From Topomyia yanbarensis (taxonomy: Eukaryota; Arthropoda; Insecta; Diptera; Culicidae), in NCBI RefSeq assembly GCF_030247195.1, contig NC_080672.1:4960001-5024000 (forward strand): a DNA stretch of 64,000 nt, written 5' to 3'. A program made the translations under genes and the position numbers. Numbering within the stretch: position 1 is the stretch's first letter; every line of letters begins with the position of its first letter. Below the pieces are notes generated by a model. The model was not told the DNA's origin. It saw nothing but the letters and a program-made list of their open reading frames with translations, and ran no database searches. Of the stretch, positions 18,496-61,590 are shown piece by piece.

Positions 18496-18806
18496 CACTC
18501 AGGTTTTTTTTTACGCGGGGGATACGAGCCGCGTAAATGAAAACCGCGTAAATTTCAAAATCCGCGTAAATGAAAACCGCGTAAATTTCAAAATCCGCGT
18601 AAATGAAAACCGCGTAAATTTCAAAATCCGCGTAAATGAAGACCACTTAAATTTAAGAATCCGCGATAAAGGGAACCTCATTGATGGATACCGCGTAAAT
18701 TCCAAAATCCGCGTAAATGAAAACCGCGTAAATTTCAAAATCCGCGTAAAAAAAACCGCGTAAAAAATACCGCGCAAAAAAAACCGCGTAAAAAAAAACT
18801 TGAGTG
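18496..18806. mobile_element. TA-flanked MITE filled with a 33-bp minisatellite
   Basis: Ends are CACTCAGGTTTTTTTTTACG and the complement of CACTCAAGTTTTTTTTTACG, with TA at 18494-18495 and 18807-18808. The inside is a tandem array of a 33-bp unit made of CCGCGTAAATGAAAA and CCGCGTAAATTTCAAAAT. The open frames on both strands (18461-18763 and 18511-18777) come from the array and are not genes. Confidence 0.8.
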
Positions 18807-22445: not shown

Positions 22446-22550
22446 ATGTCCAACTGTTTGAAAGTGAATTATGTGATTTATTTAGCGCTTATTGCCTTTT
22501 CTGCGTTTGGGATAGTTCTGGAATTCTGCTATATGCGAAATGGCTGGCCG
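22446..22550 (+). CDS. Candidate first coding exon, N-terminal membrane anchor
   Basis: The ATG sits in a good insect context (GACAATG). The frame runs 35 codons and stops exactly at a consensus 5' splice donor, CCG followed by GTGAGT at 22551, giving a phase-0 intron. The peptide begins MSNCLKVNY, has a hydrophobic stretch VIYLALIAFSAFGIVLEF (residues 10-27) and then CYMRNGWP. A short basic N-terminus with one membrane segment is typical of a type II Golgi or secretory-pathway enzyme, or of a signal peptide. No following exon is recognised in the window, as expected if the intron is long. The gene is not identified. The frame stays open past the donor, so a spurious ORF cannot be excluded. 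Confidence 0.4.
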
Positions 22551-22855
22551 GTGAGTCATCCGAACTTGGTGAACCGCAAACTGAATCGGGGCTTGTCTGT
22601 GCATATATTGACTTGTTTCGTAACCCATAGAGTTAAAGATAGTCAAAATGTAGAGCATCAGTTCGGTTTTCTAATCCAATTAAACTTTCTGAAACAATGG
22701 ATTTCGAATTCGCCTAATTTTATTTATTTATTTTATTGAAATCGTTTTGGTATTGAATTTCATTTCATATTCTCATTTTTGCAGTTTCTTCATTCGATTT
22801 ATTTTATTCATTTTGTATATTTGATTAGTTTTAAATATATAATTTCATTATAATC

Positions 22856-22912
22856 GTCCAACTGACAACAAGTTGGTGTCAGTTACCGACGAGTGGAACA
22901 CGAAACATTAAA
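22856..22912 (+). ncRNA. Hammerhead ribozyme, 5'-truncated copy C
   Basis: Core reads CCGACGA (22886-22892; the usual second U is C) with stem II GTG-GAA-CAC (22893-22901) and GAAAC (22902-22906). The inner stem I hairpin AACTGACA with TGTCAGTT is perfect. The upstream strand of stem III and the outer strand of stem I are missing because the element starts here, so self-cleavage is unlikely. Confidence 0.5.
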
Positions 22913-23149
22913 ATCCAACTTTTCAAAGTTAGGTTTTGTTGCCTTATGCGCAAATTAGTTAATCCATTCTTTTTCCTCTATGAAAAAGACTGTTTACATA
23001 CTCGCAGGTGTTTGGCTCTCATGCCAAAAGACAGTTTGTTTCCTTATACTCATCAGCGACCCAGAGCTTTTGTGCTTGGCTAACATGGACATCACTCGGT
23101 ACCAGCCATTTGCTTTAGATGTTCACACACGTTGTGTGAACTATTTAGA

Positions 23150-23256
23150 TTTATTGTCTAACTGACACCAATTTGGTGTTAGTTTTGAGACACCGTCTAA
23201 CTTAATTGACAGCAAGTTGGTGTCAGTTACTGACGAATGGAATACGAAACAATAAA
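23150..23256 (+). ncRNA. Type III hammerhead ribozyme fold, copy D
   Basis: In order: stem III strand TTTATTGT (23150-23157), cleavage-site C (23158, context GUC), stem I strand TAACTGACACC (23159-23169), an inner hairpin region, stem I partner GGTGTCAGTTA (23219-23229), core CTGACGA (23230-23236), a small stem II with a GAA loop (23237-23245), GAA (23246-23248), then ACAATAAA (23249-23256), which pairs with the first strand. Stem I is 11 perfect pairs and stem III 8. All strictly required hammerhead bases are present. Stem II is weak here (A against C at its base). Predicted cleavage follows 23158. Confidence 0.72.
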
Positions 23257-23262
23257 AATTCA

Positions 23263-24095
23263 AATTTTAACTAGATTGTCTGATTATAGTGTTAATTCGA
23301 TCATTGCAGTGAATAGAACTTTTTTTCGGGGAAATGGGGAGTCTAGGGCTAATCTCCTCTCAAATATTGACCTACCTCCGCGCAAAAAGACCAAAAGAAA
23401 CCAAAACTTGGAATCGACCTTCACGGGTTGGAACCAGTTTTGAAGGAATTGTTCATCTAGAGCCAATATATAATAACCTAAATTATTGCGTCGTTAGAAC
23501 CACCCCTGAGTCCATGGGAACAATCTTAATTTCAACAAAAAAAAAGTTTTTCTTCGGTTTATATTTCTGGTACTGTTCGCACTAGAATCAGTCAGCGAGA
23601 TGATTTTTGAAGGATTTATTCAAGGAATCTAGAAAAAAAAGTCTAGTTTTTATCGGCAGTGTTGCCAAATATGCAACTTGATGATTTTAAACTAAAAGTT
23701 CATTTTTCTCGTATTACCCATATCGGTTACTGCAGACTTTTTTACGCATAAATGACATGCTTCTCAGGATTCAGTTTGGATACTTTCCAGGGTTCAAGTT
23801 TTCTTAGCATTCCAATAGAATTCAGAATTTCGATTGTATCCTTTCTACGGTTTTTTTTCGTTGAATCTTGATGCAAAATTCTTGAAAAAAGCTTCGAGAG
23901 GTATGGTGGATTTCTTCTCAAGAAAGAATTCTGTTGAAGATAATGATTTATTCAAGATGCTGATAGAATCATGGTCCTATTTTTAATTAAATCTGGTGTA
24001 AAATTCTAATAAATATCCTGCTCTGAGTTCCAGTGGACTTAAACACAATATTGCTCTTCTCGCATTATCCCCTTCAACAATTGACTACTGTTCAG
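23263..24095. other. Unassigned AT-rich DNA
   Basis: No gene recognised. GAATCTAGAAAAAA and GCAGTGTTGCCAAATAT at about 23629-23675 recur at 4635-4679 in MITE DNA, so part of this is repeat-derived. Confidence 0.35.
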
Positions 24096-40428: not shown

Positions 40429-41728
40429 TTAAACTCGTTATATTATTTTTATTGTTTACATAAGGAAATATATAAAAGACCCACGACCCCGTTTGTTATT
40501 TTTAAATGATAAGTTTTTGAATTGCAACAAATTTTGAATTTCTGTATTAGGTCAGTGCACACTGTGCACTCTGTACTGTGCTACACAAACAGTATTTCAA
40601 TTTGTTTGAGAACGATTCAGCCGAGAAGAGAAGAAGTTTTTTTCGCGTCAATTTAACGCAATACCATTTTTATTGACACTTCATTTCATTTTTACGAGGA
40701 ATTCGTTCCGCACTAATACACTGTTCATAAGTAAATCAGTGATATCTGCAACAAACGTGTTAAAAAAAATCTTTTGAAAGTGGACGGGTCAAAAAGTAAT
40801 AAAACAATAAGCAATCACGAAGAGCGACTAAAATGTTGGGACTGATTGAATCTATTAGCCAATAAGTTAGGATAAGTGTTTCGATTTTATGTCTTCAGTA
40901 TGTGACAGTCTTCCGTTCTGTTTTTGCTCGTCATGGAATAAAATGAGAGAGATAATCTTAAATAAGAGAGAAATGAATGGAAAAAATCAACCAATCGAAA
41001 TGAACTCAAAATCACTCTTCTTTATTTTCTATACACTCAACACGAGTGGTTTCGGAATTGCGCTATGATCTTATAATTTCTTTATCCGTACAACTTTGAT
41101 GCGTTGGGTGCAACAACTTTAATTGAAACTTTTTTCCAAATAGTGGTAAAACAAACCTGTAATCATACAAACATTACAACTTTCTTCAAGAAGTCATACA
41201 TCTCTTCCAATCTTGATGACGATTGTAAAAAAATCGAGAGCTAATTATTTTTATTCAAAAACAAACCAATTACTGAGCAGATTAGTGTCCACATAATTGT
41301 TTAACGAATTGACATAAAGTTTTGCAAAAGTTTCACAGGAAACGGATAATTTGCTGTAATTTAAAAACAGACAACTCTAAAAGAAAGCCTCTTCGGCAAA
41401 TTAGATGTAAGTGCGTTGTGTTCTCTTTCATGTGTCGGAAGCAAGTGATGCTGCAATTATTAAACTCACCTATGTTTATAGATTCTAGTGGTGGTGTCAT
41501 CAATGTTATGTTTACCAAATTTTACGTAAATTAGTAGCATTCACTAATCAGTGCTAAGTAATTTTCTTTCGATTAGTGAACATGTTCTGAGCAGTTTCGC
41601 TCAGTAGATTAAATTCTGGGTAGTTTCCATTAGTAGATTAAATCATTGGAATATATATTTCACATTGTCCGAAAACCCAAGAATTCCGAAATAAAACCTT
41701 CAAATGTTTAAATTTAATATTTACTTAA

Positions 41729-42693
41729 CCCTAAACGTTGCATTTGCGTTTTCCTCCCTAGAACGTTGCACTGGGGTATAAATGTACCCCACGCATTTGA
41801 TCGCAATTTTCGCAGGTAAAAATGCAAACAAAAGAAATGTATAATACATAATTTTCTTCGCTTTTTAATTGCGAAAACAGCTGTGTAAGTGAAAGTAAGT
41901 AATTTGATGAATCAATGATACATAAATTGGTTTGAACCAAAAAAAGTGAAAATCACGCGTTTTGGACTTTTTTTTACAAAAATTACTAAAATTTTGCGAA
42001 TTTTCAACCGATTTGAAAAAAATCAATTGATTTAAAAAATTTGAAAGAATGATCTGGAAACGGTATAAAATAGAATTTCGATATTTTTGAAAAAGTGCAA
42101 TTATTTTGAGGAGTGAAAGTTTAAAAATCGAGTTTTGGAAAATACCACGAAATGGGGTGTAAATTGAAATGAAACAATATTTCTAACCAGTAATACATTG
42201 GTAACACGCAACGTTACTATTACAGCAGTTACTGTGCGCAAATTATACTTGCGAGCCATTGCTTTGAAAAACTATAAACAATAAAAATCAGCAAAAATGA
42301 GAACGATTTTTTGTTCCGCTTCAATATTAAATTAAAAAAATTAAATAAATGATTAAAAACGATTATATAATACTAATTGTTACTTACGTAGTAAAACAAC
42401 CAGTATTTAAACTGGAATTGTCATGAATCACATTTCCACTGACAGCACGAAACCCGACGAAACACTAACGGCAACCGTACACTGGGTACAAATGTACCCC
42501 ACGCCAACTTGGACACCTGCTTCCACAAAGGCTATAAGCAAACGGGCTATACCACCTTTTCCTACTCTTACTAGGAACACTAAATTGAATTATGGTTAGT
42601 GCCCCAGGTCGGTAAATGCCGAATTCTCGTTTTCGCACGGCTCCAAAGACGGGGGGGGGGGGTACATTTTTACCCCAGTGCAACGTTCTAGGG
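41729..42693. mobile_element. piggyBac-like MITE (TTAA duplication)
   Basis: TTAA at 41725-41728 and 42694-42697. Left starts CCCTAAACGTTGCATTTGCG, then CCCTAGAACGTTGCACTGGG about 30 bp further in; right (complement) starts CCCTAGAACGTTGCACTGGG. CCCTAGAA termini and TTAA are piggyBac hallmarks. GGTAnAAATGTACCCC sits at both ends. The homologous place in hAT element 2 (near 49490) has no insert. Non-coding. Confidence 0.87.
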
Positions 42694-43560
42694 TTAAGCT
42701 AGGTAATCTTCTCAAATTCCAACTGTTTTGCAAGATTGCTGAAAGTCAATAGAGCTAAGGTTCCTATTCTTGCTTTGTAGTGAAATCAGTAGTTTTTTGC
42801 ACTCACTTTACATTTTGACTTTTACTATAGTTTCAGGGATCTAGGAAAATCAGTCTACGATATTTTTAATTCGAAAGTTCAATGATATTAAAAATATCTA
42901 AAAAGAATCTACTTAAATAGATAGTTATTCTCAGTTGTCTGATAATATTGTCGAAGATAGGCTTTAACCCATTCCCCACGAGAGTCAAATAAAAACATGT
43001 GTTTTTCTCAGGATTGTTAGATTACGACATGATCAGTATCATTTAAATTGAAAATTTCATAAAGTTGAGTTAACGCAAACTTCGGATGAAGTCACAGAAC
43101 TAGTCATAGTAGCAAGGCACCTGATCATGAAAATAGGCGTTGAACCTATTTTCCGCATATACAAATCACCTGCCTTATCAGAAGATTTGAAGCAAATTTC
43201 GACATTCACTTTGTTCGGACATTCTTTGCAACGGTAAACTTGGATTTCACGCTGATATATTCCTATACATGGGGACAAGCTTGACGATGGTTTCGTTCTC
43301 ATGATTAGCAGATGCGTGTAAAGTTTCGTGAGACGGGTTTTTGCATATTTTTCTACTCATTCCAATTTAGCGTCTTCTACAAATTGTAAACGTGTAGTCT
43401 AGAATGCGTCGTATTTTCAAGCAGCCCTAAATACTTTGAACTCTTGAATATTCATTTTTGTAACTAGAGAAATTTCTAACTTGTAAATTAATAATAATCA
43501 AATTTAATTCGTCGATGCACTATAGCCTTTCTTGTAACAGACAACATATTTTTAAGGTTT

Positions 43561-43670
43561 TTTTTTTGTGTTTCGAATTCATCTCGTCAGTAACTAGCAC
43601 CATCTGGGTGTCTAGTTAGACGATGTATCTAATCTAGTACCCAAATTAGCACTAGTTAGACACAAAAAAA
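43561..43670 (-). ncRNA. Type III hammerhead ribozyme fold, copy B
   Basis: Complement of copy A with a few changes. Core CTGACGA is the complement of 43584-43590, GAAAC of 43570-43574, and the cleavage-site GTC of 43659-43661 (cut after the base opposite 43659). Stem III pairs TTTTTTTGTGT with ACACAAAAAAA; stem I pairs TAACTAGTGCT with GGTGCTAGTTA. Confidence 0.7.
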
Positions 43671-44246
43671 ATTCCAAACAGTTCACACGACACATGTGAA
43701 CGTTCAAAGCAACTGACTTGTCCCGAGTGATGTCCCGGGAAGCAAGCACAGAGGCTCAGATTTGCTGACGAGAAAGCGAAAATGAACTCTTGTCTTTTGG
43801 CTCGGGAGAAAAAAAAACTTAATTTAAGTTAGGTTTTGTGCCCTTAATGCACAAAGTGGTTCAGTCCAATTTTCCCTTATGGGAATTTAAGATTGCATAA
43901 TGCCAGGCATTTGGCTCCCGAGCCAAAAGACAAGAGTTCATTTTCGCTTTCTCGTCAGCAAATCTGAGCCTCTGTGCTTGCTTCCCGGGACATCACTCGG
44001 GACAAGTCAGTTGCTTTGAACGTTCACATGTGTCGTGTGAACTGTTTGGAATTTTTTTGTGTCTAACTAGTGCTAATTTGGGTACTAGTTTAGATATATC
44101 GTCTAACTAGACACCCAGATGGTGCTAGTTACTGACGAGATGAATTCGAAACACAAAAAAAAATAAAACTTAATTTAAGTTAGGTTTTGTGCCCTTAATG
44201 CACAAAGTGGTTCAGTCCAATTTTCCCTTATGGGAATTTAAGATTG
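43564..44246. mobile_element. Hammerhead-bearing inverted element (retrozyme-like), locus 2
   Basis: Order: inverted unit (43564-43807, minus sense), spacer S (43808-43901), unit (43902-44155, plus sense), spacer S again (44157-44246). The two units are near-perfect inverted copies, each with a full hammerhead fold. An 18-bp direct repeat CATATTTTTAAGGTTTTT flanks it (43546-43563 and 44247-44264). The minus-sense copy ends in A-rich sequence after GAAACAC. This fits LINE-type insertion of a multimeric transcript with 5' inversion. Confidence 0.7.
44052..44161 (+). ncRNA. Type III hammerhead ribozyme fold, copy A
   Basis: Stem III TTTTTTTGTGT (44052-44062) pairs with ACACAAAAAAA (44151-44161), 11 pairs. 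Cleavage-site C is 44063 in a GTC context. Stem I TAACTAGTGCT (44064-44074) pairs with GGTGCTAGTTA (44121-44131), 11 pairs including three G-U. Core CTGACGA 44132-44138; stem II GAT-GAA-TTC (two pairs); GAA 44148-44150. Against copy D (23150-23256) several pairs in stems I and III change on both sides, which supports the fold. Confidence 0.72.
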
Positions 44247-44416
44247 CATATTTTTAAGGTTTTTAGTGCCTATTGTCTTAGCTTTGGAATTGTTTTCACT
44301 AAGAACTTTTCATAATTACGCTCAGTTTCCAGTGACTATCTAAAGTTATCAGAATTAATACATTTATGCAATAATTTTAAAACCCCTCCCGAAACAAAAT
44401 CCTGGCTACGGGCCTG

Positions 44417-47223
44417 GTGTGCGAACTCATCGGCTAACACATACTGACAAACTAAATTCAAAAAGTTGATCTCAACTAACTCACTGAAGGATGCAACCAG
44501 TCGCAACATTTTAGTCACTCTCCGGAACTGCCTATTGACGTCTGTCGACTGCTTCGTTGCGTCGTATGTGAACTTCCGCGGACTGTAATTAGCTCTCATA
44601 GAGGGAGACTAAAATGCTACTGATAGTTGTAATTTTACGTTCTGTGTTGCAACATAGTGTAAGAATGATGATAGATACTGAAGTGTTGGGTTGTTAATAA
44701 TATTGTGGTTTTATCAGCATCAGCCGCATAAAATCAATAAAATTGGCATTGTTTTAAAAAGAAAATGACATTCTCGCCGGGTACGCTTGCACAATTGTGT
44801 AAGTGTTTATCTTGCCATTAAAATAACAAACATTATTCTGGCCAAAATGAAAACACTGTATGTTATCATCACTAGAATCGCTTATGATTTAAACGAGCAC
44901 CTGAATAAACATTGAACGATAATTTGTTCACGCGTGACTAACATTAGCGAAGAAGATTTTTGGAGTCTGTTCAGTCTACTATAAAATTTCGTCTCAATGG
45001 TTTGCTCAAACTTTTTCTAACGCATTCACGAGAAACATATTTATAAAGAGATGCTTGTTTTTTTTTTAATTCTGATAATTTTCGGGTAAGGGAGCCTTAA
45101 ACCCTCAAGCCGCCTCTGGCTTTGGACCCGTGACAAGGATTTGCTTTTTACCACATTGTTTTGTAAGATATCAGTGAAAATGTAATTGAAATTCTCCAGT
45201 CGGTTTCGGGATCGGTTGTTGCATAGGAGCCTAAGTTTTGAATCTAATTTTGGGTAGTTTTACTTTCCAAAGAAAAAATCACTACAAAGGATGAACCATG
45301 TCACATTGACAAGATCTTAATTCGGCATTTATTTTTAAATTTTTTTGCTAAATATCAGTTATTGCCAAAAACAACCATTTACAATAATTTCGTTATGCGA
45401 TTTGCGTTTCGACTTCGTCTCATCAGGACTAGCGCCAGATTGACGTTAGCTCCAAACAAACGGAGACACAATTTGTGTCCCTGAGAGTGAATTTGACACA
45501 AAACATAGATTACGCCACTTATTTCATACATTTATACGATAATAAAACCACTAATTTTATTGCACTTTTATAATGAACCGCCTTGGTATCTCCAGTGCAT
45601 TTATATTTTATGAAATTGCATCTCGGACACCTAGACGATTCAACATAAAAGCGCACTTTCACTAGTGAAGTTACACTTTCTCGCTGTTATCTTTTTAATG
45701 CAAATATGTCATATTATTCCCTATTCGAAAGGGCCACGGCCTCATGCTATTCGTACACGTCACATCCACATGACGTGCCTGTGGTGTGTCAATGATCAAC
45801 GTGGTGCAAACACAATGTGAGTAATTCTTCCATGTCCAGCTCAGCGCCACCAGTACCCGAGTAGACCTATTGGCTATTCTGCTGCGGCTAATTAAAAGCG
45901 ATTATAAATTTAATGGGCCCATGCAATAGTGATTAAGTTTTATGAGCACCAATCTGGTTGTTTTACGGAGGTTGTTCTAAATAGTTCACTTGATCTTTTT
46001 TGTTTAATGATTTATCCACAGCTACTAGATCGTTCTCAATTTTCTTTCTCTTTGATTGCTTGTAAATTACATACTGTCATTTGGAGCGAGGTTTTCATCT
46101 GTTGGCATATACCAGAAGTGTTTTGGTTGGTTGTTGTTATCGGTTAGTACTCGATTTGTTTTAGGATATGTTCATAGACGTCCACCTAAAACGTTGAAGT
46201 TGTGTAAATTGTGACCAACCACATATCAAATATGCGGATATTAAACCAAATAATTAAAGACTAAGTAGCCTTTGTCGTTTTATCCCTTATGATTTTGACG
46301 AACATTTATTATTGACTCTAATCACGAACTTGGCTCACACTTAACAGGTTTTGCTAAATGTCTCTAACAAAATCTACGTCCTTTATTTTGAATCCTTAAA
46401 CAACTATCACCCCCTATTGGCGCATCACAAAAAAACATTTCCGAAACACCGATCAATCAACACTCGCGTTTCGATCAATGAAAGACAATCTATCGATATC
46501 CTACATAATACACACCCACCCATCAAAGCAACCGAGTCCGATCAGCTTGCCCCCTGCCTCGATCGGTCCGGGCCGGTGGTGGTGAGACAATGCAAGGTTC
46601 GTCGCTACTGAGAGACAGCGCGCGCATTGATGTCTTTCTCCTCACGCTTGTTGTGCGCTGTCAATGCTAAATATTGCACTGCAGTAGCCAACAACAGCAT
46701 CTAAAACAGAGAATCGTCGAGTACCTACTTATCAGCGGGCAGCGATCTGGGCAGTGGTTTTAAATGTCGAATTTGCTGAAGGTTTTGATTTTCAGCGGAT
46801 AAAGATGTTTGTCTAACGTGGTTAAGTAGAGACACGGCAAGGATAGCAACAGTTATGTGGAAATGGACACGAAAAACGCATGGACTGTTTCTTCACGAGC
46901 GGAGTGTAATTGCTAGAGTTGCATGAATTCTAATTAAATCCCAAAAAAAAGTCATGTTCGTATTCGAAACATTTGCCACCCACGTCGTTTCGGTTTTGAA
47001 CCGCGACTGCATCCAACGGCTTCGTCGTAATTCACCCTTCTCGAGAAAATGTTAGTTCACATCTGGTAAAAGTCATCAGCACTCGGATCGGATCTCCAAA
47101 CGATCTCGGTGCTGTCTCTTTCGAAAGCTCTTCGGAGGGTTTTGTATACCGCACCACTAAACACTAATGTTTAGGTCCAACATAACTGGTGGCAGGCAGC
47201 ATCCAGTTGGGCCACCATCTGTC
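44417..47223. other. DNA between the two hAT elements
   Basis: Includes a hammerhead relic (45400-45520). AGCCGCCTCTGGCTTTGG near 45110 resembles a decayed hAT end. A GC-richer, apparently unique block at 46500-46760 contains GATCGGTCCGGGCCGGTGG. No gene is recognised; the ORF at 46351-46611 has no family. Confidence 0.4.
45400..45520 (-). ncRNA. Hammerhead ribozyme relic, copy E
   Basis: The minus strand gives a perfect core CTGATGA (opposite 45420-45426), stem II GAC-GAA-GTC and GAAAC (opposite 45406-45410). GCTAACGTC with GGCGCTAGT forms an imperfect stem I hairpin just upstream. TTTTGTGTC opposite about 45499-45507 could pair with ACGCAAA through one G-U pair. Base pairing next to the cleavage site is disrupted, so it is probably inactive. 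Flanks do not match the other copies. Confidence 0.5.
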
Positions 47224-47520: not shown

Positions 47521-48480
47521 TCATACTTTTATTTATTTATTTATTTCTTCGTCTTTGACTCTTTGTGCCATACAGACTGTTTCTTAAACTAGTCTAACTC
47601 TACTTGATTACAAATAATAATAAAACAAATAAAGAAACAACACTACACAACATTAAGCAATATTTCATAGTAAAATTTATAACAAAATTCAGCGTTGCGG
47701 CGGCTCCCAAATTTCGAATTTCTCGTAAAATTCTCGGAAACAGATTCTTTTTGGCCACGTCGATGGAGATAATGCAGCGTTTTTCAATCTCAATCCTACC
47801 TTGAATGAAATGTATGGCATCGATGACTGATCCTTCCATTCAGGTACTAGCTTTTTCACGATTGCATTATTTGTCCCAAGCGATTCGGCAACCAAGGTTG
47901 AAATATCTCTTTCATTCGCTGTATTTTTGACGCGAGTGAAGAATAACCAGCAAAGATTGTTTGATTCCGAAGCATTAGTCATTTCACGAACAACCCTACA
48001 CCCTTGTTGCAAACGAGTAGACGACATCAGCGGTATTGATTGGGCCAGTGGTGAAATTTCTTCAGGGAATCAAAATCTATCATCGCGCGAACGGGTAATT
48101 TCGGCAATCGATTCTTGAATAGCAGTTGTTGCATATTTCATATTCGACACTTCTTCAATAAAATCAGCACTGGGTTTTTCTGTTTGAGTGTCTACATTAA
48201 CAGACACAGTAGCAGCACTAGCAGGGGTAAGTGAAGCGGCATCGGCGATCGTTTCACGTTTATCTCGAAAAGTTTGAATCTTGCGAACATCGACCAGGGT
48301 CGTTGTACAGGGGCTACACATCCACCAGATATTCCTGTGCTTATTGCAGCTTCTTACCTCTGCTATTGTTAGTGTAGCACATTTGGCATGATATTGTTCC
48401 GAGCAGAATCCATCGCAGGCAATCATCTCGTCACCGGCCGCAATAGGCAGAGCACATTTACAACAAAACATCTTCAGCTA
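47521..48480 (-). pseudogene. LINE ORF1 with PHD-type zinc finger, no ORF2
   Basis: Starting at 48471 (minus), MFCCKCALPIAAGDEMIACD, then C and H residues and WWMCSPC form a PHD-like finger (CxxC, CDGFC, HAKC, WxCxxC; residues 3-55). This is known from ORF1 of CR1-group LINEs. After a frame change near 48050, LFFTRVKN, KLVPEWKD, YISFKVGL and WPKRICFREF continue the ORF1 C-terminal part to 47689. A few dozen bases on, the minus strand ends in a TAAA-type tail (47521-47545). ORF2 is absent, so this is an ORF1-only derivative or a rearranged copy. Confidence 0.7.
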
Positions 48481-59524: not shown

Positions 59525-60464
59525 CACTTATTCCAGGAATGAGGATGCTAACGGATCAGGAACGACCGCGCAAAAAAAAAATCGAAAGTCTGTTAAATTG
59601 GAGAATTTGACCAAGAAACTACAAGCAGAGAAAGCAGAAATGATGGAGCAGCTTAAGCAACTGCAAGCCGAAATCGCAGATATGAAAACCGTTAGAAAGG
59701 CGAACCCAACCGCTATCGAAACAACCGAGAAAGATGACGTAGAAGATCGTAGTTTTGAATTTGAGATATTGCCGAGCGCGTCAAGCACTCGCCATGCAAG
59801 ATCTGTTAATTTGGAGGAGTCTCGTTTCTTATCTTCAGTGCACCAGTTGTCTGTATCATCAATTGTGATTCCAGAATGTAAACCGATAGAAGGGGATGAC
59901 GAAATACACCGGCGTACATTTGAAATGTGGAGGGACTTACTTATAGATTGCTTGGCTTTAGCTGGAATTGAAGACGAGGTGACAAAATTCATTGTCTTCA
60001 AAGTTAAGGCAGGTCCTCGCTTGCTTACAATTTTCAAAAATACAAAGTCTGATACTGAGGCTCCTGACGCAACCACCAGTCCTTTCTCGAATGCACTCCA
60101 CCGACTCAAACTATATATCGACGTACTCGCCACATTTGAAGCATTCCTGTTCATCTCCAAAGATCGACCGGTGCATCTGGAAAATTTTTATGTCATTAAG
60201 GATGCTAATCGCTCGCTGTTGGGCATATCTACTGCCATAAGGTATAGTGTACTGATGGTAGGAGTTGATGTACCCGTTCGTGTACAAGATTGCGATAGAA
60301 ATCCAATCAATAATGGAATCGTAGCGTCGATCGAGTTTAGTGAGCCGTTCCCCAAATTTAATATTCCACCTGTAAAAATCAGCTACGACAGGTGTGTTTG
60401 CTATGCCCACACTCGAATCAATGCTGGCAAAATTGAATGGCGCCACTTGGTTCTCAACAATTGA
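59525..60464 (+). pseudogene. Ty3-type gag fused to a pol remnant by deletion
   Basis: One open frame (from 59382) carries a lysine/leucine coiled-coil region (LTKKLQAEKAEMMEQLKQLQ), then FEMWRDLLIDCLALAGIEDE, VFKVKAGPRLLTIF and FSNALHRLK, which match the capsid start of mosquito Ty3-type gag. At about 60110-60125 the frame passes directly into pol-like sequence: FYVIKDANRSLLGISTAIRY and FPKFNIPPVKISYDR, the protease-RT junction. The rest of gag, zinc knuckles and most of protease are deleted. The frame shifts again into the RT at 60394. The true gag start is not clear. Gag would form the particle that packages the RNA. Confidence 0.75.
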
Positions 60465-61590
60465 TTTATCTAATGCTTTTTTTCATATAGAGCTAGATAA
60501 AGAATCCCGGCATCTTACGAATTTTTATACAGAATTTGGAGTATTTAGATGTGTTCGTCTACCCTTTGGATTGTGCAACGCGCCAGATGTGTTCCAAGAG
60601 GTGATGCAAAGAGTAATCTTGGGAGAATGCACTGGAATAGTTAACTATCTAGATGATATACTCATCTTTGGATGCACCAAAGAGGAACATGACGCGAATT
60701 TAGGCGCAGTGCTTGATCGTCTCAAACAGCATAATGTAAAGTTGAATAAAGACAAATGTGTCTTCGGTAGCCAATTGGTAAAATTTGTTGGGTTTACATT
60801 GAGCCCTAAAGGATGGAGTGTAACAGATGAAAAGATGAAAGCCATCAAAAGCTTTCGAAAACCATCATCATGTGCTGAGGTCAAAAGTTTCCTTGGGTTG
60901 GTGACCTTTGCTGACAGATTTATTCAAGGAAGAGCAGATTTAACAAAACATTTACGAGCCCTCGCGAATTCAGATAAATACTATTGGACCGATACCGAAG
61001 AGAAGGAGTTTAATTACCTGCAGGACAAAGCTTTGAAACAAATCCAAGTGCTTGGTTATTACAGCCTTACCGATGTAACCGAACTCTATGTTGATGCGAG
61101 TCCAATCGGTCTGGGTGCAGTCCTGGTACAATATAACACAGACAATATGCCACGCATAATTTCTTGTGCCTCAAAAGCGCTTACACCAACGGAGCAGAGG
61201 TACCCCCAAACCCAAAGAGAAGCATTAGCTGTAGTTTGGGGAGTGGAGCGCTTCACTTCGTATTTACTGGGAAGATCCTTTATCATTCGGACGGACGCGG
61301 AGGCAAATGAATTCATTTTCAGTACAACCCATAGGATTGGCAAAAGAGCTGTGTCACGCGCGGAGTCGTGGGCGCTACGGCTTCAACCATTCGATTTCAT
61401 AATAAAGGGAGTTAGGGGAAAAGAAAATCTCGCAGATACTTTGTCCCGTTTGATTCATAAATCACAGAAAGCGGAACCTTTCGAAGAAGACGACGATGGT
61501 CATATTGTGTATTCGCTGGATGCAGGATCGATGAGTATTACCTGGGATGAAATTGAAAAGGCATCAGAGGTCATAAATTTTGAAAAATAA
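60394..61590 (+). pseudogene. Ty3-type reverse transcriptase and RNase H, integrase missing
   Basis: 398 open codons. RT: FSTIDLSNAFFHIELD (D24), VRLPFGLCNAPDVFQEVMQR and YLDD (85-88), with catalytic aspartates kept. RNase H: YVDASPIGLGAVLV (D234), REALAVVW (E276), RTDAEANEFIF (D301; the usual H two residues on is E) and ENLADTLSR (D348). The frame ends 39 codons later at a breakpoint (EVINFEK, TAA) inside a 58-bp direct repeat, so integrase is absent. The N-terminal fingers are also deleted. The enzyme domain itself looks well kept, unlike most relics here, suggesting a fairly young insertion. Confidence 0.87.

Follow-up and report, generated by a model that had tools for sequence, protein, structure and literature searches.

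A type III hammerhead ribozyme fold in a probable retrozyme-like element of the mosquito Topomyia yanbarensis

Does the stretch at 23150-23256 (+) of the Topomyia yanbarensis DNA analysed here (64,000 nt of contig NC_080672.1, hereafter the window) hold a hammerhead ribozyme, and what kind of sequence carries it? A first-pass annotation of the letters had read there a full type III hammerhead in mosquito repeat DNA. We find that the hammerhead fold is almost certainly real, and propose as the probable explanation that a small retroelement, non-autonomous and retrozyme-like, with a unit of 344-351 nt, carries the motif as its type III hammerhead. The fold, the tandem unit, a flanking repeat and an inversion are seen in the sequence itself.

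The motif, designated copy A2, was read using the established hammerhead numbering and consensus core, and has its parts in type III order (open stem III, GUC, stem I, core, stem II, GAA):

23150-23157 (+): 5' strand of stem III (TTTATTGT), 8 perfect pairs with 23249-23256
23156-23158 (+): GUC triplet, predicted cleavage after 23158
23159-23229 (+): stem I rod, 17 unbroken bp at the base and an imperfect rod above
23230-23236 (+): catalytic core CTGACGA
23237-23245 (+): stem II, ATG-GAA-TAC, degenerate, closing pair A-C
23246-23256 (+): GAA (23246-23248) and 3' strand of stem III

Along the strand this reads TTTATTGTC, a long palindromic stretch, CTGACGA, ATGGAATAC and GAAACAATAAA. The GUC, the core, the small stem II, the GAA and the 8-pair stem III all lie where the first-pass annotation had placed them and in the order it gave, and the type III topology with an open stem III that it described is borne out by the 8 perfect outer pairs and by a descriptor match. 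The 11-pair stem I of that description holds in part: stem I is present, with 17 unbroken pairs, and the figure of 11 fits a local hairpin alternative.

To gauge how often such a motif arises by chance, we used a type III descriptor composed after the motif was known (CTGANGA core, GAA, a NUH within 130 nt, stems I and III of at least 5 bp each, stem sum of at least 13), which accepts an unpaired stem II stretch of up to 9 nt, as in A2. The 64-kb window contains exactly three matches, with stem sums of 25, 25 and 26 and core C3 at 23230 (+), 44132 (+) and 43590 (-), the latter two belonging to a second element, B. By comparison, 1000 first-order Markov windows yielded five type III matches with a largest stem sum of 18, and a smaller null of 40 windows in which type I was also permitted yielded one match, of type I. 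No type I hammerhead is present in the window at the descriptor thresholds, and a type I reading of the motifs was rejected, there being by eye no GUC with a closing stem after GAAAC in A2 or B.

The first-pass annotation had looked to an Rfam covariance model for confirmation, and there it was disappointed, since no hammerhead match was obtained in the window. Such an outcome is one of the two conditions that the annotation had named as jointly refuting it, the second being a lack of cleavage. Using Rfam release 15, no family matched the whole window at gathering thresholds, and none of the four matches in 22500-23600 and five in 42500-46500 obtained at E up to 10 is a hammerhead. In the known type III model stem I is a short hairpin and stem II is longer, which likely explains this silence. 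The present motif has a stem I of about 70 nt and a stem II of 2-3 bp, in contrast to the roughly 6 and 4 bp of these stems in a typical type III hammerhead (PMC7936874). Our own covariance model was built from the three complete ribozymes (A2, and Bf and Br of element B) and so necessarily recovers them; it further matched two half copies, A1 (43.9 bits) and C (24.2 bits), as well as A2 on the reverse strand of its palindromic stem I (25.9 bits). The other 24 of its 30 matches all have E above 0.3. Pattern searches for relatives returned 0, 0 and 1 matches in viral contigs and none in bacterial and archaeal genome contigs. The single viral match, having no covariance-model match at E up to 1 and no Rfam match at gathering score, was taken as chance. 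ARAGORN found no tRNA genes.

The repeat that carries A2 is delimited as follows:

22855-23268 (+): element A by extent of similarity, both ends uncertain
22860-23203 (+): one 344-nt unit of element A, set by the period from copy A1 to copy A2
22886-22906 (+): copy A1, hammerhead remnant comprising the 3' half (CCGACGA, stem II GTG-GAA-CAC, GAAAC), mutated core, no convincing 5' half

A 54-nt stretch containing the core occurs a second time 344 nt upstream at 89% identity, and the A2 motif therefore closes one unit of tandem element A. The repeat context given by the first-pass annotation is thus correct in kind, although not as a long array: element A is an insertion of about 1.2 units in direct repeat, with a younger relative, element B, in the same window. 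Element A is the older of the two, A1 and A2 being identical in 54 of 64 columns. No target-site duplication of A was detected between 22740-22865 and 23250-23345 (8 nt exact, 11 nt with one mismatch, 14 nt with two).

Element B is better preserved and has a more complex arrangement:

43545-43562 (+): left flanking repeat, 18 nt, terminal TTTTT possibly element letters
43563-44246: element B, flanked by an exact 18-nt direct repeat
43563-43808 (-): inverted 5' segment, 246 nt, carrying type III hammerhead Br
43561-43670 (-): hammerhead Br, predicted cleavage at 43659
43809-44246 (+): forward segment, 438 nt, 1.25 units of 351 nt
44052-44161 (+): complete type III hammerhead Bf, stem III 44052-44062/44151-44161, C17 at 44063
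44064-44131 (+): stem I of Bf
44132-44138 (+): core of Bf
44139-44147 (+): stem II of Bf
44247-44264 (+): right flanking repeat, 18 nt, initial CATA possibly element letters

The unit of B measures 351 nt, the spacing at which a 91-nt stretch recurs in direct orientation at 99% identity, and the inverted arms match over 119 nt at 96% and 149 nt at 99%. The insertion totals 684 nt, or 1.95 units, so that its end and its start lie 15-19 nt apart on the unit, depending on whether CATA is counted. Element B is young, as its internal copies are identical in 82 of 82 body columns and its longer internal copies in 241 of 251, with gaps making up 8 of the other 10. The first 13 nt of the flanking repeat are found only at these two sites within the window, and any common 13-mer was obtained in 3 of 20000 draws of two 60-nt zones, close pairs skipped. 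The target duplication of B is 9 to 18 bp long. Of this, 9 bp are unambiguous, because CATA is also present in the unit where B ends and TTTTT could derive from a run of T letters in the inverted segment; the outermost stem III pairs of Br borrow T letters from the flanking repeat. The two segments meet at an A-run just after the ribozyme, where, as RNA, the inverted one ends and the forward one begins. Facing this A-run, the left flank closes with TTTTT, which could anneal to it. At the 3' junction, which lies away from the predicted ribozyme cut, B has CATA in common with the unit.

The units of A and B are identical in 254 of 363 aligned columns (BLAST, 70.8% over 343 columns) and have GC contents of 0.39 and 0.40, respectively. 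Their circular folds have z scores of -6.2 (A) and -9.8 (B) against 60 shuffles each, with 65 and 68% of positions paired. Judged on the element stretches themselves, no ORF of at least 120 aa overlaps A or B, and ORFs for a reverse transcriptase (RT) or GIY-YIG domain are absent from both at that length. Core words of the form CTGA-GAG...GAAA at the corresponding place of both units had hinted at ribozymes of two polarities:

23039-23056 (-): opposite-strand core words in element A
43942-43958 (-): opposite-strand core words in element B
43765-43781 (+): inverted copy of these words in element B

An opposite-strand ribozyme was nevertheless rejected, as a search with thresholds lowered to stems of 3 bp (stem III of 2 bp for type I) gave no candidate in A and two weak candidates in B.

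A third, different hammerhead remnant lies downstream of element B:

45395-45437 (-): copy C, 3' half (CTGATGA GAC-GAA-GTC GAAAC), no valid 5' half

Our covariance model matches copy C at 45395-45466 (-) with an E of 0.008, its 5' half being unacceptable by eye, and copy C was rejected as a full ribozyme, with no candidate in 45330-45560 (-). BLAST ties only its core stretch to element B. Elsewhere in the window, 40805-40904 (-) and 44438-44537 (+) have 100 nt in common at 72% on opposite strands and look like another dispersed repeat, the former copy having a core-like CTGAAGA...GAAAC near its start. A short tandem array of CCGCGTAAATT-type units with periods of 14-33 occupies 18529-18797 (+). 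The ORF at 60394-61587 (+) encodes RT and RNase H domains (Pfam), probably of the Ty3/Gypsy type, and matches a protein of Armigeres subalbatus at 88% identity over 98%; the best 120 of its 564 matches also include Aedes albopictus, Sabethes, Malaya, Wyeomyia and Topomyia. Taken by itself, this single mobile-element protein would place the window most likely in a culicine mosquito, perhaps Armigeres or a close relative of it, in line with the mosquito origin given in the first-pass annotation. A weak match to a PHD finger (E 0.0025), short of the Pfam cut-off, was obtained for the ORF at 48070-48471 (-).

The predicted fold is supported, short of proof, by covariation. We aligned five rows (A2, Bf, Br, C and A1) over 24 proposed pairs, and paired cells make up 82.6% of 115, compared with 34-47% after a shift of the partner by one to three columns. 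Six of the 24 pairs, two per helix, are changed on both sides, compared with 0 to 3 for shifted partners. Of 500 shuffles, 2 attained the paired fraction, 2 the covariation score and 1 the number of cells changed on both sides, but 60 attained the count of doubly changed pairs and 171 that of further pair types. The evidence stops short of proof because C and A1 are without a convincing 5' half and the rows represent only about three independent lineages. The invariant core CTGACGA and the GAA are intact in A2, Bf and Br, and A1 has CCGACGA. In stem II the GAA loop is constant in all five copies, and the arms vary: GTG/CAC (A1), GAC/GTC (C), GAT/TTC (B) and ATG/TAC (A2).

Energetically, imposing the hammerhead on five stretches (A2, Bf, Br, and shorter versions of A2 and Bf) gave folds 1.3-3.6 kcal/mol above the minimum free energy (MFE), tertiary contacts being left out of the energy. 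The stem I stretch of A2 can alternatively fold as three small hairpins. Separate hairpins were rejected as a replacement for the rod, which is better by 11 kcal/mol in A2 and 7 kcal/mol in B when only the first hairpin is imposed and the remainder folded freely. We also considered a second GUC, within a CGTC at the apex of stem I in A2, Bf and Br and before A1, and set it aside since it would leave a short stem I and, by eye, a poor stem III partner. In A2 and B the stem III of the outer GUC is perfect, unlike that of the apical CGTC; the latter may be a minor cleavage site.

Stem II is the weak point of A2. Its closing pair, 10.1-11.1, is G-C in four of the five aligned copies and A-C in A2, where the remaining pairs around the GAA loop are U-A and G-U only. 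A hammerhead stem II frequently has only two bp, with the closing pair among the most conserved positions and U-U tolerated there better than other mismatches (PMC3088659). Given the A-C mismatch, copy A2 may be weak or dead; it is the more damaged copy, and the better hammerheads are both in element B. Judging from sequence, we consider activity of the B ribozymes reasonably likely and that of A2 doubtful. With 2-3 bp and a GAA loop, stem II makes no evident contact with stem I, and cleavage could therefore be slow; a triloop would give little space for such a contact between the stem I and stem II loops.

How might such a unit have moved? We infer transcription, cleavage, circularisation and a helper enzyme from the arrangement of the copies. 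A copy with at least two tandem ribozymes would be transcribed, and each ribozyme would cut after its GUC, freeing unit-length RNA that could be closed into a circle or left multimeric. A reverse transcriptase lent by another element (LINE or Penelope-like) would then copy the RNA at a nicked target using microhomology priming. Reverse transcription that sometimes ran for more than one turn of the template would give tandem or 5'-inverted insertions with target duplications. Since B comprises 1.95 units, its template would have been multimeric, or a circle read nearly twice. An inverted 5' part such as that of B is typical of target-primed reverse transcription, and the arrangement is that of twin priming with microhomology, a process that produces a 5'-inverted copy with microhomology at the junctions (PMC2912911). 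In the human and chimpanzee data of that source, 5' inversion is common for L1 itself (639 of 2068 insertions) but was seen in one Alu and in 4 of 477 SVA insertions; its rarity among RNAs mobilised in trans disfavours twin priming for B. A Penelope-like enzyme, described as starting internally and extending both target strands (PMC11167929), would also fit B, and we favour neither a LINE nor a Penelope-like source.

This retrozyme-like explanation has to be weighed against others. The palindromic arms of a DNA foldback element or MITE might resemble a hammerhead by accident, as the arms of B are inverted (119 nt and 149 nt, 96 and 99%) and those of stem I are palindromic in themselves. A 9-bp target duplication, moreover, does not exclude a DNA transposon, and the sure duplication of B is compatible with one. 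That this duplication is 9 bp rather than 18 slightly lowers the probability of the retrozyme-like explanation and slightly raises that of its DNA-transposon rival. We still regard a foldback origin as quite improbable, because a repeated unit with one inverted segment explains the arms, given that the 91-nt stretch also repeats directly, because element A is a direct repeat, and because the hammerhead core is kept in two elements only about 70% alike. Very unlikely, in our assessment, is a dead relic, in which a former ribozyme would now be inert repeat DNA at both sites. The divergence of A1 from A2 (54/64 identical), the mutated core of A1 and the mismatched stem II of A2 would suit a relic, whereas the youth of B (82/82; 241/251) and the intact core of both its ribozymes argue against it.

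Penelope-like elements (PLEs) deserve consideration as more than a source of enzyme, since they combine hammerheads with a tandem or partial tandem layout, and their internal RT start and extension of both target strands would account for the inversion in B too (PMC11167929). The units could then be the non-coding remnant of a PLE fragment or parasite, with the hammerhead derived from the pseudo-LTR. This is improbable given that minimal type I is the form described for the hammerheads of PLEs (PMC7761336, PMC7229834), and that the 344-351-nt units are related over their length (254/363 columns) and overlapped by no ORF of at least 120 aa. The least probable alternative, which we consider very unlikely, is that the sequence was captured from an infectious circular RNA of viroid-like or delta-like kind and is not a genomic element. 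Toad and termite delta-like circular RNAs contain type III hammerheads in which helix I is long, and dipteran genomes contain structurally similar ones (PMC7936874); these resemble the present motif in topology, in a helix I much longer than usual and in the dipteran host; the unit also folds as a compact, highly paired circle. Delta-like RNAs are, however, about 1,500-1,700 nt long, far longer than the unit, and their 6-bp stem II, the loop of which pairs with helix I in a pseudoknot (PMC7936874), is absent here, where a stem II of 2-3 bp with a GAA loop is too short for such pairing. Delta-like agents further have ribozymes on both strands, whereas no acceptable antisense hammerhead is present in A or B, and the termite genomic hammerheads are reported in that source as isolated motifs, in contrast to a motif within a tandem retroelement unit.

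Returning to the retrozyme-like explanation, the closest parallels are the metazoan non-LTR retrozymes, described as low-GC tandem repeats of 150-450 bp with type I hammerheads and target duplications above 4 bp (Cervera and de la Pena 2020, PMC7229834); a Nematostella retrozyme has a 15-bp duplication (PMC4918200). Elements A and B resemble these retrozymes in their tandem units of 344 and 351 nt, low GC, highly self-paired predicted circle and lack of a long ORF, and B also in a duplication above 4 bp (at least 9 of the 18-nt repeat), none having been found for A. They differ in that their hammerheads are type III and that they have about 1.2 and 1.95 units per insertion. By this analogy, the element probably works like a non-LTR retrozyme as a type III variant and not as a standard member. 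Plant LTR retrozymes similarly have a type III hammerhead in a repeated non-coding unit and a ribozyme partly blocked in the predicted MFE fold, but differ in a unit of about 700 bp, GC over 55% and a 4-bp duplication (PMC4918200), compared with half that length, 39-40% and 9 to 18 bp here.

The Aedes aegypti repeat-type hammerhead (Perreault 2011, PMC3088659) is likewise a mosquito motif in an interspersed repeat with a weak stem. Its short loop III may pair in a dimer and its layout appears to be type I, in contrast to the open, longer stem III of our motif; one Aedes example showed no cleavage, and its authors propose that a dimer may be needed (PMC3088659). The mammalian discontinuous Clec2 hammerhead shares type III topology and an unusually large helix I, although it is a gene 3' UTR motif and not part of a mobile element (reviewed in PMC6155905), unlike the retroelement-like unit described here.

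The first-pass annotation considered a type III hammerhead with a long open stem III in an insect tandem repeat unusual. The topology alone is less so, given the type III hammerheads reported from Diptera in PMC7936874, which cites work in preparation on them. Elements with type III hammerheads in insects are also mentioned in PMC7761336, with reference to an earlier paper and work in preparation. In the literature examined we found no mosquito retrozyme with a type III hammerhead, and we make no claim that such an element is unpublished. The fold is real, ordinary in principle and unusual in combination.

Culicine mosquitoes may, as a tentative extension of these results, harbour animal retrozymes of a class that is still active and that combines a type III hammerhead with a stem I in rod form and a stem II close to the minimum, in which case element B would reflect reverse transcription that started inside a circular RNA, ran for nearly two turns and was primed from both target strands. 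In the sources cited above, animal retrozymes are described with type I and plant retrozymes with type III hammerheads, a division that a small animal type III element would break. The type III ribozymes found in delta-like RNAs of insects might then also have a relative in the genome. Insertion B, which is young and 5'-inverted, records how such an RNA was reverse transcribed, and with it the circular-template model becomes testable.
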